DNA of 22,661 nucleotides from a virus. The stretch's first letter is position 1. Each line of letters begins with the position of its first letter. The DNA is taken from the IMG/VR virus record IMGVR_UViG_3300018048_000074, positions 1-22,661 of that record; one strand, given 5' to 3'. Shown here piece after piece: positions 1,938-18,036 of this stretch. The notes below the pieces were generated by a model, which worked only from the letters and a program-made list of their open reading frames with translations, was not told where the DNA came from and made no database searches. The position numbers and the translations under genes are program-made.

Positions 1938-2939
1938 TTACACCGTCTGGTAAGCTGTTACGTTACCTTCGGCTATGAAGTTACCGGATGAGTCCAACCG
2001 AGCTACGTTGTTACCGTTGTAGTAGAAGTACAAGTTACCACCCGAGGCATTGATACGCCAGTTAGTTCCAGGTATGTTGGTATTGTTCTTCAGGTAGTTG
2101 AAGCTGGCATGGTTACCCCAGCCGTAAGCTGTGTTCCAGTTTGCAGAGCTATCTGTGACGATTGAGTAGGAACCAGAGGAGGCGTTACGCTTCATCAGAC
2201 CTTGTGAGTTGAAGTCACTGTCAATCACGATGTTTGCTGTGTTACCACCTGGAATGTTGGTGGCTTTTAAGTAGCCCTCTACTGAGTGATCGCCCCAGCT
2301 AAATGCGGTGTTCCACGCCGAAGAACTGCCCCCAGTCGCGGTGAGAGTAGTAAAAGTACCAGAGGTTGCAGTAGTTCCGCCGATGACTGTTCCGTCAATG
2401 GTTCCTCCATCAATATCGACACTAGTGAACTTACCTGTAGAAGCAACTGATGCTCCGATTGCGGTTCCATCAATACTACCCCCGTCAATGTTAACGCCAT
2501 CAGATACAATCGTACCACCCGTCATGTTCAAGGTAGTGATGTTAGCTGTTGAGAATGTACCAGTGGTAGCTGTTAGAGTATTCACGCCAGATACGTCATT
2601 GCCGCCCAGCGTAAGGTTACCCGTGAGGGTAGCACCGGGTGCAGTCAGTACGGTTGATACGTTTACAGTACCCGCTTGGATAGTTGTGAAGTCGCCCAAC
2701 CCCGGAGTGACCTGCCCTATGTCGGCACCATCGATCGATCCACCATTGGCAGATAGAGAGGTAAACGAGGCAGTTCCTGTGAATGTCGGAGAAGCGGCGG
2801 GAGCGCACAGTTCAAATGCACTCTTGATGTTATCGAACTCTGTAGTGAATTCAGAGCCGCGTATAACTTTAGCTGCGTTGCCTTGAGGGAGTGTATCCTT
2901 CGCAGCAAAGTCAGTGGTGATTACATACGATATGGACAT
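1938..2939 (-). CDS. Tail fibre-like protein lacking an S74 chaperone domain
   Basis: The 333-residue product is a fibre-type virion protein. The middle (about 95-200) carries spaced repeats of the form IDGGSIDGTAIG / IDGGTIDGTVIG and LTGNLTLGGNDVSG, typical of phage fibre shafts. It also has two copies of a WNTAYGWGNHAS / WNTAFSWGDHSV motif near 205 and 270. The C-terminus ends GNVTAYQTV. GNVTAY is the same string that leads directly into the S74 domain (GNVTAYSDIR) of the next gene, so this protein stops where a chaperone domain would be expected. A start at 2937-2939 is supported by AGGGG six bases upstream. Which receptor or tail part it serves cannot be told. Confidence 0.75.
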   Translation of the reverse strand: MSISYVITTDFAAKDTLPQGNAAKVIRGSEFTTEFDNIKSAFELCAPAASPTFTGTASFTSLSANGGSIDGADIGQVTPGLGDFTTIQAGTVNVSTVLTAPGATLTGNLTLGGNDVSGVNTLTATTGTFSTANITTLNMTGGTIVSDGVNIDGGSIDGTAIGASVASTGKFTSVDIDGGTIDGTVIGGTTATSGTFTTLTATGGSSSAWNTAFSWGDHSVEGYLKATNIPGGNTANIVIDSDFNSQGLMKRNASSGSYSIVTDSSANWNTAYGWGNHASFNYLKNNTNIPGTNWRINASGGNLYFYYNGNNVARLDSSGNFIAEGNVTAYQTV

Positions 2940-2968
2940 ACTTAGCCCCTAAGCAGGAAGAAGGGAAA

Positions 2969-2995
2969 GGAGACTAGACAGATTGCCTAGCCTCC
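2969..2995 (-). terminator. Rho-independent terminator after the major capsid gene
   Basis: On the minus strand GGAGGCTAG and CTAGTCTCC form a 9-bp stem (one G-T pair) around a 9-base loop, followed by a pyrimidine tract TTTCCCTTCTTCC. It lies in the 65-base gap between the capsid and fibre genes. A terminator at this place is known in T7-like phages, where it lets capsid mRNA be made in excess. The T run is interrupted, so termination is probably partial. Confidence 0.65.
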
Positions 2996-3004
2996 TCAGA
3001 CCGA

Positions 3005-3940
3005 TTAGACTACGAGAACGAAGCCTGATTCGGGACGGTACACTTTGGTGCCGTAGATAGTATCGGCAGTGTACAGAGTTGACAAGTACTCTTGCTTGTA
3101 CTGAGTCTGTGAGCGTACACCCAGCTGCTCAGCGAGTACCATAGTGTCGCGGTGTACCAAGAAGGCAGCGCGATCACCAACACCCAGACCTTCAGCATTG
3201 GCAGGAGCGTTAGTAGTGACATGAATGTCAACACCATACAACTCGCCAACCTTACCGCCTGGAACCTTACCGCTGTTAACGAAGTCGCTAGACACGTAAC
3301 GCTCGATGCCCATGATGGCGTTGCGAAGTACAGGCGGGATAACGAAAGAGCGTCCGTCCATAGGAACGTCAGCATCATCCATCTGCTGTATCGCAGCGCG
3401 GAACGCAGCATCAGTGAATGCACCAGCAGCAGCAGTACCGTTGTACGCTTCAACATCAGTGCCACCAGCGTTCGGTGTCAAGACGTTGCTGTTAGTCCAG
3501 TCAGCGCCGTCACCGTCACCGAAAGACTTACCAAGCTCAAACAGGTGGTCATCAACCTGAGTGGCCAGAGCGTAACCAGCATCACCAGTGTAGAACTTAC
3601 GCAGAGAGGACATAGCCTGAACCTCTACAATGTCCTCGATGAAGCGTGAGTACTCGAAGTGCTTGTCAATAACGACAGTCAGTTCACCTTCAACATTCGC
3701 TTGAATGTTAACCTGAGTGTTCGCAAGTTTCGCGGAAGCCGCGCCACGAACAGGCTTAGGAATGTGAATGGTGTCGCCTTTCTTGCCAGTCATCTTCATC
3801 TTCTTGACGAGGTTGGCAAGTACGAGATTCTGCTGGTAAGAGGCGATTACCTCGTCAGACCAAATCTCAGGAATGAAAGTGTCGGCATTCGTCAGGTTGA
3901 CGATGCTCGTTGCACCTCCGGGATATGTTTCAGTAGCCAT
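3005..3940 (-). CDS. Major capsid protein
   Basis: The 311-residue product is recognised as a podovirus-type major capsid (coat) protein. The N-terminus reads MATETYPGGATSIVNLTNAD, then TFIPEIWSDEV, LVKKMKMTGKKGDTIHIPKP and a region about 80-125 (VVIDKHFEYSRFIEDIVEVQ) that fits the coat-protein family seen in many marine and enteric podoviruses. Fold-level knowledge would make it an HK97-like shell subunit. It follows the scaffold gene by 18 bases with a strong AAGGAG seven bases before the ATG. A terminator follows. No decoration domain or cleavage signal is evident. The length is normal for such coats (about 300-400 residues). Confidence 0.88.
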   Translation of the reverse strand: MATETYPGGATSIVNLTNADTFIPEIWSDEVIASYQQNLVLANLVKKMKMTGKKGDTIHIPKPVRGAASAKLANTQVNIQANVEGELTVVIDKHFEYSRFIEDIVEVQAMSSLRKFYTGDAGYALATQVDDHLFELGKSFGDGDGADWTNSNVLTPNAGGTDVEAYNGTAAAGAFTDAAFRAAIQQMDDADVPMDGRSFVIPPVLRNAIMGIERYVSSDFVNSGKVPGGKVGELYGVDIHVTTNAPANAEGLGVGDRAAFLVHRDTMVLAEQLGVRSQTQYKQEYLSTLYTADTIYGTKVYRPESGFVLVV

Positions 3941-15386: not shown

Positions 15387-15728
15387 ATGATGTTATATGA
15401 CCCGTGTGCCACGACTTGGCAGGACGTTAGAGATGAACTGTCTGTCGAAGGCTTTTACGATTACATACGAGAGCAGCCCAGCGAGGCGGTGATAAATCAT
15501 AATCGCGTATTCGCTGTACTGGCCGACTATGTATATGATATAGCCGCACCTCACTGCGAGAGAGGCTCGGAATATCACGATGATCTGTGTCGGGACTTTC
15601 GAGACCAGTGGGAAGAGGAAGATCAAGTGGTCTTTGAATTCTGGAACCATAACATGGGGAAGGATTTCGCAGACTATCAATTAATCCTGGAATATAGGGA
15701 GCTAGAAGATGCCATTGCTAAGCATTAA
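15387..15728 (+). CDS. Hypothetical acidic early protein, 113 residues
   Basis: ATG 15387 follows AAGGAG, which lies within the end of the preceding gene. The protein is acidic and aromatic-rich (YDYIREQP, YVYDIAAPHCERGSEYHDDL, DQWEEEDQVVFEFWNHNMG). Strongly acidic small early proteins in phages include DNA mimics that block restriction or other host DNA-binding enzymes; with a methyltransferase nearby this is worth considering but not shown. It overlaps the next gene by 20 bases. Confidence 0.65.
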   Translation: MMLYDPCATTWQDVRDELSVEGFYDYIREQPSEAVINHNRVFAVLADYVYDIAAPHCERGSEYHDDLCRDFRDQWEEEDQVVFEFWNHNMGKDFADYQLILEYRELEDAIAKH

Positions 15729-16383
15729 TCAGGACGCTAAGACTCGGAAGTCTAACAAGTCGGAGGATTGGCTGACTGCAATTCAGTACCTTGCTCCAGC
15801 TAAGGTGGCGGATGGTGTTCGCACTGTCTGCCCAATGGCGGAGACTGCCAAGTGCGAAGAACCGTGCCTGAATACCTCGGGCATGGGCTTCATGACTAGT
15901 GTGCAGGATGCGCGTATAGCACGTACACTCCTGTACCTTAATGATAGAGAGGTGTACCTCGAGCAGCTTTATAACGAGGTTATAAGGGCTGAGAAGAGAG
16001 CGGCTCGGATAGGCAAGAGCCTAGCGCTGCGCCTCAATGGAACTTCGGATATACCGTGGGAAAATACAGGTATATTGAAGATGTTCCCGCACTTACAGTT
16101 CTATGATTACACCAAGCTGCCAACCCGCAAGGTGCCTGACAATTATCACCTGACGGTCAGCTACTCGGGAGCTAATCAGGACTACGCGCGCAAATGTCTT
16201 GCGTCAAAACATAATGTAGCGGTAGTATTCAGGGAGGAGTTGCCGCTCTTTTGGGGAGGTCGTGAGGTAGTCAATGGAGACAAGGATGATCTCCGGTTTT
16301 TGGATAAGCGAGGCGTGATCGTGGGCTTGCTTGCAAAGGGTAAAGCTAAGAAGGATACTTCTGGCTTTGTTGTTGATCTATAA
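15709..16383 (+). CDS. Conserved phage protein (Gp88/DUF7227-like), 224 residues
   Basis: The layout is strongly conserved in phages, from memory: VCPMAETAKCEEPCLNTSGM with a cysteine cluster, ARIARTLLYLNDREVYLEQL, the core LALRLNGTSDIPWE, MFPHLQFYDYTKLP, NYHLTVSYSG and NVAVVFREELP, then DLRFLDKRGVIVGLLAKGKA. These match what I recall of the mycobacteriophage Gp88-like / DUF7227 family, whose biochemical role is unknown. Clustered cysteines suggest metal binding. Palindrome copy 6 sits inside the gene and is read in frame as LYNEVIR; the flanking residues LEQLYNEVI recur at the end of the methyltransferase. The stop lies in palindrome copy 7. It overlaps the previous gene by 20 bases; the ATG is preceded by AGGGAG. 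Confidence 0.78.
   Translation: MPLLSINQDAKTRKSNKSEDWLTAIQYLAPAKVADGVRTVCPMAETAKCEEPCLNTSGMGFMTSVQDARIARTLLYLNDREVYLEQLYNEVIRAEKRAARIGKSLALRLNGTSDIPWENTGILKMFPHLQFYDYTKLPTRKVPDNYHLTVSYSGANQDYARKCLASKHNVAVVFREELPLFWGGREVVNGDKDDLRFLDKRGVIVGLLAKGKAKKDTSGFVVDL
15969..15985. repeat. Dispersed palindrome copy 6 (inside a gene)
   Basis: Perfect TTATAAC-GAG-GTTATAA within the Gp88-like gene, translated as YNEVI. Upstream flank GAGCAGCT matches GAGCAACT beside copy 9, extending the similarity to about 25 bases. Confidence 0.92.
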
Positions 16384-16636: not shown

Positions 16637-16701
16637 TGAAGACTTATAACGCGGTTATAACGGAGAAAACCAACCATGAAGAGGTACCAAAATGTGGATA
16701 A
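16636..16701 (+). CDS. Possible 21-residue leader-type peptide ahead of the methyltransferase
   Basis: ATG 16636-16638 overlaps the previous stop (TAATG) and has GAGG seven bases upstream. Twenty-one codons run through palindrome copy 8 (read as TYNAVIT) and over the methyltransferase start to TAA 16699-16701. A well-initiated peptide overlapping the next start could couple or attenuate methyltransferase translation. It could also be fortuitous. Confidence 0.35.
   Translation: MKTYNAVITEKTNHEEVPKCG
16644..16660. repeat. Dispersed palindrome copy 8
   Basis: Perfect TTATAAC-GCG-GTTATAA, 15 bases before the methyltransferase ATG, just upstream of its GGAGA. Confidence 0.92.
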
Positions 16702-17590
16702 TTCCAAGGAATCACGAACTGTACTCAGTCTTTGCACAGGATATGGTGGAATCGAGAGAGGACTTGAACTTGCTGGGGTCAGAACTCGAGTCCTCGCTCA
16801 TGTGGAAATCGAAGCCTACTCCGCTGCAAACTTGGTTGCGAAGATGGAAGAGGGTAAGCTGGTTCCGGCACCTGTGTGGACGAATCTTAAAACCCTGCCA
16901 ACGCGCCCTTTTCGAGACCGAGTTGACCTACTTACTGGAGGGTACCCATGCCAGCCGTTCAGCCAAGCAGGTAAGCGGCTTGGAGACCAAGACCCACGGC
17001 ACCTATGGCCGCACATCCGGAGTATCATCGGGGCAGTTAAACCTGTTCAGTGCTTCTTCGAGAATGTCGAGGGACACGTTACCAAAGGACTCCAAGAAGT
17101 GCTCGATGACTTGGAAGGCCTCGGTTACACTGCAACGTGGGGAATATTCAGCGCGAGAGAAGTTGGCGCTCCGCATCTTAGGAAGCGAGTCTACATCTTG
17201 GCCCACGCCAACGTGCCAGGACAGCGACAAAGCATCCAAGAAATTAAGGACGGACTTCCAGAACAACCTCACGGCTTTGGTGTTCGCCTCGGTATCGAAT
17301 CCGTTGCCGACTCCGACTGCGAGGGACTACAAGGGGGGCTATACGACAGCCTCGCTGACTCGGAAGGATGGCAAGAGCAGGGCGATGGATGCTCTACCGA
17401 ACGCAGTGATCGGGGGAGTTGGGACAGACGTTATCCCTGGACATCTGAACCCCGAGTTCGTAGAGTGGTTGATGGGAGTCCCAACCGAGTGGACAGACTT
17501 AGGCAGCTGGGGAATGGAGTAGTACCACACACTGCTGCTAAGGCCTACCGTGTTTTACTAGAGCAACTTTATAACGAGGTTATAGTATGA
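16676..17590 (+). CDS. DNA (cytosine-5) methyltransferase
   Basis: The 304-residue protein transfers a methyl group from S-adenosylmethionine to cytosine in DNA. Motif I is LSLCTGYGGIERGLE (about 17-31), motif IV GGYPCQPFSQAGKR with catalytic Cys92, motif VI FENVEGH (Glu129), motif VIII HLRKRVYIL (167-175) and motif X LGNGVVP (278-284). The target-recognition part (about 180-265) ends in WTSEPRVRRVVDGSPNRVDR, as in phage Dcm-like enzymes. There is no cognate endonuclease nearby, so a protective role against host restriction is likely. ATG follows GGAGA. The last codons fall in palindrome copy 9, giving the tail LEQLYNEVIV, and the stop overlaps the next start (ATGA). A long +1 frame overlaps most of the gene. 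Confidence 0.9.
   Translation: MKRYQNVDNSKESRTVLSLCTGYGGIERGLELAGVRTRVLAHVEIEAYSAANLVAKMEEGKLVPAPVWTNLKTLPTRPFRDRVDLLTGGYPCQPFSQAGKRLGDQDPRHLWPHIRSIIGAVKPVQCFFENVEGHVTKGLQEVLDDLEGLGYTATWGIFSAREVGAPHLRKRVYILAHANVPGQRQSIQEIKDGLPEQPHGFGVRLGIESVADSDCEGLQGGLYDSLADSEGWQEQGDGCSTERSDRGSWDRRYPWTSEPRVRRVVDGSPNRVDRLRQLGNGVVPHTAAKAYRVLLEQLYNEVIV
16692..17522 (+). CDS. Overlapping +1-frame ORF resembling phage 'WPTPTxxD...EWLMGxPxxWTDL' proteins
   Basis: ATG 16692-16694 lies 16 bases after the methyltransferase start in the +1 frame, with AGAGG about seven bases upstream, and stays open for 276 codons. It does not look like a random shadow. It contains MTWKASVTLQRGEYSAREKL, SWPTPTCQDSD (about 169-179), LPTPTARDYKGG (205-216) and HLNPEFVEWLMGVPTEWTDL (251-270). 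From memory these strings recur in phage proteins annotated as hypothetical or methyltransferase-associated. The DNA for ADSDCEGLQGG in the methyltransferase frame gives PTPTARDYKGG here, so the two families may be frame partners. Either both are made, or one is a by-product of codon use in the other. The function is unknown. Confidence 0.45.
   Translation: MWIIPRNHELYSVFAQDMVESREDLNLLGSELESSLMWKSKPTPLQTWLRRWKRVSWFRHLCGRILKPCQRALFETELTYLLEGTHASRSAKQVSGLETKTHGTYGRTSGVSSGQLNLFSASSRMSRDTLPKDSKKCSMTWKASVTLQRGEYSAREKLALRILGSESTSWPTPTCQDSDKASKKLRTDFQNNLTALVFASVSNPLPTPTARDYKGGYTTASLTRKDGKSRAMDALPNAVIGGVGTDVIPGHLNPEFVEWLMGVPTEWTDLGSWGME
17569..17585. repeat. Dispersed palindrome copy 9, supplies a Shine-Dalgarno
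   Basis: TTATAAC-GAG-GTTATAG has one mismatch, at the last base. It forms the C-terminal codons of the methyltransferase. GAGG at 17576-17579 is seven bases before the ATG at 17587. Confidence 0.88.
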
Positions 17591-18036
17591 TGATGATACC
17601 CGTGGACGTTTACTGGAACCTGCACAAGGGAGGCTGGTCAGTGCGGAACCGTAAGACTGGCCGAGTTATACAGGTGGTACCAGAAATCAGCCTGATTAAC
17701 TGCCGCTTTGTAGTGCAGCCTGCTGGCAGGGAGAAGGTTAGGAGGGAGAAGCGCAAGACAGTACATGCCTTTGTACGTGGGGAGTACTGGCCGCATTTCG
17801 CAGCCACCCCCATTGCTCAGACTGAGGGCGTGACGTATAATCCGTACAAGCACAACACGTTCGTTATCAGGGATGGTGAGTACCCTGTATACGACTCCGA
17901 CATAGCTGAACTGAGGACTGATAGCAATGGCAAAGGGAGAGTCGAAGCCCAGTGGCTGGAACCCGGTGGCAAAGTATTCACGCCGGTTCAACAAGGCACA
18001 TACATTCAAGGACAGGAAGAAGGAGGCCAAGCGTAA
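17587..18036 (+). CDS. Conserved hypothetical phage protein, 149 residues
   Basis: The product contains YWNLHKGGWSVRNRKTGRVI (about 9-28), RFVVQPAGREKVRREKRKTV, HAFVRGEY, VTYNPYKHNTFVIRDGEYPV. From memory this combination marks a family of small proteins widespread in phage early regions and without assigned function. It is rich in basic residues in the middle, so nucleic acid contact is possible. Three ATG codons in a row (17587, 17590, 17593) follow the GAGG of palindrome copy 9; the first overlaps the methyltransferase stop. The TAA overlaps the next ATG. Confidence 0.72.
   Translation: MMMIPVDVYWNLHKGGWSVRNRKTGRVIQVVPEISLINCRFVVQPAGREKVRREKRKTVHAFVRGEYWPHFAATPIAQTEGVTYNPYKHNTFVIRDGEYPVYDSDIAELRTDSNGKGRVEAQWLEPGGKVFTPVQQGTYIQGQEEGGQA

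Follow-up and report, generated by a model that had tools for sequence, protein, structure and literature searches.

A phage locus with nested reading frames that probably encodes the two halves of a DNA (cytosine-5) methyltransferase

A 22,661-nt stretch of viral DNA (the window; IMG/VR record IMGVR_UViG_3300018048_000074, positions 1 to 22,661) carries a locus that very probably encodes a two-polypeptide phage DNA (cytosine-5) methyltransferase with nested genes, resembling M.EcoHK31I. The alpha protein (frame 0) would form the catalytic large domain, consisting of motifs I–VIII, a disordered linker and motif X. The beta protein, read in the +1 frame, would provide the target-recognition side together with motif IX, which is missing from alpha. 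Together they would be expected to form a single active enzyme, both being translated from the same stretch of mRNA and, in most relatives, from starts a few nucleotides apart behind one ribosome-binding site. The first-pass annotation had described a cytosine methyltransferase gene and a 276-codon +1 frame with its own ATG behind AGAGG; both frames, the motifs quoted for them and the ribosome-binding site are present, as listed here.

16676 to 17590, plus strand: alpha ORF, cytosine-5 methyltransferase with motifs I–VIII and X; longest ORF, 304 amino acids, true start perhaps GTG 16694
16680 to 16685, plus strand: Shine-Dalgarno-like AGAGGT, 6 nt before the beta ATG and 8 nt before the alpha GTG
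16692 to 16696, plus strand: ATGTG, overlapping starts ATG (beta) and GTG (alpha candidate); ATGTG stands here in 79 of 143 dereplicated loci
16692 to 17522, plus strand: beta ORF in the +1 frame, putative recognition side and motif IX; 276 amino acids; phrog_1008 match, 5.5e-22
16937 to 16975, plus strand: alpha motif IV, GGYPCQPFSQAGK, with the catalytic Cys; P91, C92 and Q93 invariant in the alignment
17054 to 17077, plus strand: alpha motif VI, FFENVEGH; E129 and N130 invariant
17150 to 17203, plus strand: alpha motif VIII, SAREVGAPHLRKRVYILA; R169 and R171 invariant
17196 to 17228, plus strand: beta repeat motif SWPTPTCQDSD; SWPTP is the alignment consensus
17301 to 17339, plus strand: beta repeat motif PLPTPTARDYKGG, overlying alpha ADSDCEGLQGG
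17442 to 17501, plus strand: beta motif IX, HLNPEFVEWLMGVPTEWTDL; P254, V257, E258, L260, M261, G262 and T268 nearly invariant; aligned to canonical motif IX via bridging sequences
17495 to 17527, plus strand: alpha motif X, RLRQLGNGVVP; G279, N280 and V283 invariant

The rest of the window reads as a tailed phage, with tail fibre, portal and terminase genes on the minus strand and primase-helicase and DNA polymerase genes on the plus strand. Upstream of the locus lies a gene (15709–16383) that matches phrog_1617 (2.1e-65), a family of unknown function. At the other end, the alpha stop codon TGA and the start ATG of the following ORF (17587–18036, phrog_586) overlap within 17587–17590, which suggests translational coupling of alpha with the downstream gene.

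Separate protein searches of the two frames, a check put forward in the first-pass annotation, identified alpha as a member of PF00145 (7.6e-31), with the match confined to residues 15–179 and motifs I, IV (PCQ), VI (ENV), VIII (R.R) and X (GN) all located in this frame. Beta matched PHROG 1008, annotated as ‘DNA methyltransferase’ (5.5e-22). At its C-terminal end, the alpha tail gives a weak match to PHROG 1008 as well, and PHROG 116 is touched by both frames, by beta only at an E value of 0.35. These common matches gave an early indication that alpha and beta might be pieces of one enzyme. Searches of Pfam, NCBIfam and PADLOC returned no family for beta, and a PDB sequence search with beta or a beta profile returned no credible relative. 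An out-of-frame HNH insertion, as in phage methylases (ShiLan, PMC11855218), was considered and rejected for beta, which has no Pfam match and extends over the methyltransferase itself rather than over an insertion.

Several lines of evidence indicate that beta is a protein under selection. Of 105 full-length relatives, 103 keep the +1 frame open, against 10.1 expected from synonymous shuffling of alpha, in which synonymous codons are permuted while the methyltransferase protein and codon usage are held constant. For the window gene, none of 300 such shuffles kept the frame open (mean 7.7 stops), and the third frame of the 105 relatives contains approximately 13 stops per gene. In canonical single-chain enzymes the +1 frame is open in 0 of 31 (15.1 stops versus 15.9 expected). 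When both proteins were searched by tblastn against 139 related IMG/VR loci, beta was found at +1 of alpha with the sole exception of one locus, L052. Codon-position variability tells the same story. Across 32 disjoint nested pairs, differences at alpha codon positions 1, 2 and 3 amount to 0.213, 0.114 and 0.230, compared with 0.207, 0.126 and 0.482 in 12 canonical single-chain pairs, these controls coming from one bacterial family (Moraxellaceae neighbourhood) with a base composition unlike that of phages. Positions 1 and 2 have thus diverged nearly equally in the two sets, whereas alpha position 3 varies about half as much as its canonical counterpart. An internal control, the alpha tail behind beta, is free of this base-composition weakness but short: at fourfold sites of alpha, the difference is 0.194 within the beta overlap versus 0.377 in the tail. 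Because alpha position 3 is beta position 2, a silent position-3 change in alpha alters beta. The open +1 frames, the reduced position-3 change in alpha and the variable beta wobble base, which is the most variable position in the downstream part, therefore identify beta as a protein under selection, and selection at the protein level acts on both frames. The conserved overprinting proposed in the first-pass annotation, which frequent +1 stops and normal synonymous change in homologues would have contradicted, is borne out by the open frames, the reduced synonymous change and the canonical controls.

The strength of this constraint differs between regions. The ratio of position-3 to position-1 differences (bootstrap over pairs) is 1.38 in the first 62 codons of beta, 0.71 [0.56–0.84] on the recognition side and 0.56 [0.44–0.68] in the motif IX stretch, compared with 2.67 [2.15–3.37] in the alpha-only tail. 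Beta is therefore constrained from its first codons, where the position-3 difference is 0.177 versus 0.407 in the tail, and is the dominant frame downstream of motif VIII. Identity to the window on the recognition side is somewhat higher for beta, 0.377 versus 0.324 for alpha (beta higher in 57 of 90 loci), and in the catalytic half alpha is the more similar frame in every locus. Five loci (L107, L115, L117, L121 and L145) have longer intervals between motifs VIII and IX, and in L145 a motif of the (W/L)(S/P)TPxxxD type recurs several times in beta. Gain or loss of recognition modules may proceed by units that leave both frames intact.

The motifs of the enzyme are divided between the frames. 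In a first scan of 305 loci with profiles for motifs I–VIII, X and IX, motif IX lay at +1 to motifs I–VIII and X in 285; over all loci, this arrangement includes 79 from GTDB genomes and 12 named phage records. Altogether, about 300 loci of phages and bacteria, drawn from IMG/VR, GTDB genomes and named phage records, have the nested arrangement. Motif X follows a once-only rule, being in the alpha frame in 306 loci, in the beta frame in 6 and in both frames in none; in the window, alpha motif X and beta motif IX overlap by 7 nt in different frames. Four loci (L134, L163, L164 and L194) have motif X following motif IX in an open beta frame, with alpha stopping after motif VIII, long before X; these natural intermediates are useful for ordering the frame shifts. 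Two actinophage genes have motif IX in the alpha frame and a broken +1 frame, of which the middle region is still beta-like: Mycobacterium phage Papez (L307, LLPTPLARDSKGTSF) and Gordonia phage Rabbitrun (L308, KLFPTPRSADAIAG). These are possibly a decayed or transitional form. L052 has two copies of motif IX at about 2931–3235, a degenerate one in the beta frame and another in the alpha frame, with X in the third frame, possibly tandem recognition modules with an indel. The differing frame relations of L052 and L305 are perhaps single-base indels or decayed copies, and in L045, an ambiguous case, IX is joined directly to X in the beta frame.

The identity of the beta motif was established through bridging sequences, those that read motifs IX and X in one frame. 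Compared directly by profile, the C-terminal part of beta shows a weak similarity to canonical enzymes (P 0.037), with the alignment falling on motif IX. The bridging IX–X profile, by comparison, aligns both with canonical motif IX–X (P 2.4e-6) and with the beta motif (8.6e-18), and the beta motif is therefore motif IX. The first-pass annotation had likened LNPEFVEWLMGVPTEWTDL to phage proteins, which is correct as far as it goes; the description was incomplete in that this sequence is also the motif IX that the methyltransferase frame lacks. Its suggestion of a family evolved by frame change from methyltransferases holds for the C-terminal part, through these same bridging alignments. In some canonical genes, too, the +1 frame is similar to the N-terminal half of beta; this similarity follows from the conservation of alpha and proves little by itself. 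The window gene thus departs from the single-chain m5C form, with motif IX in the +1 frame and no confident place for a recognition domain in alpha.

An AlphaFold2 model of alpha has pLDDT values mostly above 90 at residues 11–180 and 281–300 and below 50 for most of 199–263, the stretch lying over the recognition side and motif IX of beta. It superposes on M.HhaI with a Z-score of 20.6 over 198 aligned residues of 327, and alpha is predicted to be the large domain of M.HhaI with the motif X helix and without a confident recognition domain. Beta modelled alone (103 alignment rows) reached a pLDDT of 55. A subunit that folds jointly with alpha may well give so poor a model, which supports no fold in particular; a recognition-domain fold for beta is putative (pLDDT 55, no PDB relative by sequence).

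An alpha start codon lies within 7 nt of the beta start in 138 of 143 dereplicated loci with a beta N-terminus. For about half of the dereplicated loci (69 of 143) this is the sole ATG, GTG or TTG available to alpha, the region further upstream being cut off by an in-frame stop. Besides ATGTG (79 loci), the sites include GTGTG (12) and TTGTG (4), and in another clade the site is RTGAATGAG, where the alpha start precedes that of beta by 4 nt. Upstream of 110 of the 138 paired starts there is a Shine-Dalgarno match; in the NTGTG class its spacing has a broad distribution that peaks at 12–13 on the scale of PMC9841429. In the window, ATGTG at 16692–16696 holds two start codons in two frames behind one ribosome-binding site, as in an ambiguous AUGUG site, and since AGAGGT lies ahead of it, alpha may begin at GTG 16694. 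The first-pass annotation had placed alpha at 16676; the ORF is there, but its true start may be this GTG, overlapping the beta ATG. The further ATG at 16676, which has an upstream GGAG, is a possible alpha start. With AUGUG at 12/14 spacing, translation of both frames has been observed in vitro and in vivo in E. coli, and at 15/17 spacing AUG is favoured over GUG in an E. coli reporter (PMC9841429); the window has 15 (beta ATG) and 17 (alpha GTG) on the DtoStart scale. In the ATGTG loci, ATG would serve beta and GTG alpha, with both starts presumably in use. We lean towards the view that these loci form a class of methyltransferases, widespread among phages and bacteria, whose two subunits are made from one ribosome-binding site through overlapping or adjacent starts (ATGTG, GTGTG or RTGAATG), with the mRNA site setting the subunit ratio. 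If so, this would be conserved, family-wide ambiguous initiation in which the two frames are interlocking halves of one enzyme.

Other explanations for the second frame account for parts of these data. The two frames overlap in a constant relative frame and motif IX is expected in any working m5C enzyme, both of which would fit a single chain made by programmed ribosomal frameshifting from alpha into beta (motifs I–VIII, recognition side and IX). However, a chain with I–VIII, IX and X would need two opposite shifts in 306 loci, and selection acts on beta from its first codons (position-3 difference 0.177 versus 0.407 in the tail), where a start codon is preserved; we consider frameshifting very unlikely. 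Equally improbable, in our judgement, is a genuine beta protein whose function is unrelated, for example counter-defence, and which was overprinted by chance on the methyltransferase. Overprinted genes often encode new accessory proteins, and the N-terminal half of beta has no known relative, yet the motif IX absent from alpha sits in beta, motif X shifts between both frames, and nearly every locus returned by the beta searches had alpha as well, with beta at +1.

We give almost no credence to a +1 frame kept open solely by base composition and by the constraint on the alpha protein. Some +1 similarity in the middle region does occur even in single-chain genes, but the synonymous shuffles, the 31 canonical controls and the change of the most variable position to beta’s third base downstream all speak against it. 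The preferred reading, a two-subunit enzyme, goes beyond the first-pass annotation in that the products are complementary halves of one enzyme and their start codons overlap. On the sequence evidence, beta would be produced, bind alpha and determine the target, and the pair would be enzymatically active. Orphan phage methyltransferases are likely to guard phage DNA from host restriction, and protection of this kind would be the likely purpose here. As for origin, we propose that one frame shift after motif VIII of a canonical gene gave an AquI-like form, and that a second, compensating shift before motif X gave the form seen in the window.

To our knowledge, there are few documented cases in bacteria and their phages of very long overlaps on one strand in which selection acts on both frames. 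Here the overlap is recurrent and its biochemical logic is readable, as a catalytic half and a recognition half. Many phage ‘DNA methyltransferase’ annotations may consequently cover half an enzyme. Relatives of beta are in databases as phrog_1008 and phrog_116 (‘DNA methyltransferase’), ORF28 of E. coli phage K1ind2 (‘Mte8-like’) and the ‘internal gene’ of Paenibacillus phage Shelly and of Lily; the Leyra record likewise has the beta frame annotated, and phage N15 is another source of a related locus. The phrog_1008, phrog_116, K1ind2, Shelly and Lily entries offer no function or explanation for the overlap, and the searched passages of the P. larvae phage papers do not discuss the ‘internal gene’ annotated in some of their records. 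A literature search, with most subscription journals outside its scope, found no account explaining the phage overlap or the shared start. The second protein has so far been mostly unannotated or unexplained. Split, nested m5C enzymes and annotated beta frames were already known; what is new is that the alpha and beta starts usually lie no more than 7 nt apart, mostly behind one Shine-Dalgarno sequence.

Among known enzymes, M.EcoHK31I has its small gene nested in the large gene in another frame, with both proteins needed in vitro, and M.EaeI is a two-polypeptide m5C methyltransferase of the same kind. In the passages of PMC3404938 that describe M.EcoHK31I, the large polypeptide contains motifs I–VIII and X and the small one IX. 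Compared by description, this division is identical to that of alpha and beta in the window, where the beta gene is also nested in alpha in another frame. The two differ in that the predicted TRD of M.EcoHK31I is placed in the large subunit (same passages of PMC3404938), whereas here the recognition side appears to be in beta, and in that shared start codons, present here, are not reported in those passages. In M.AquI, alpha contains motifs I–VIII and beta IX–X (PMC3404938); L134, L163, L164 and L194 share this division, whereas in the window, as across the 306 loci, motif X stays with alpha.

The start site has its closest parallels in Thermus rnpA–rpmH, named in 2022 as the only earlier bacterial case, and in the AUGUG and GUGUG sites of E. 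coli, which likewise have adjacent starts for two frames; in rnpA–rpmH and pqiA, one Shine-Dalgarno sequence serves both starts (PMC9841429). The present family would add many natural cases of a mechanism that PMC9841429 illustrated with few. In those examples the two frames encode unrelated proteins or alternative ORFs, whereas here they would encode two halves of one enzyme, in an arrangement conserved across phages and bacteria.
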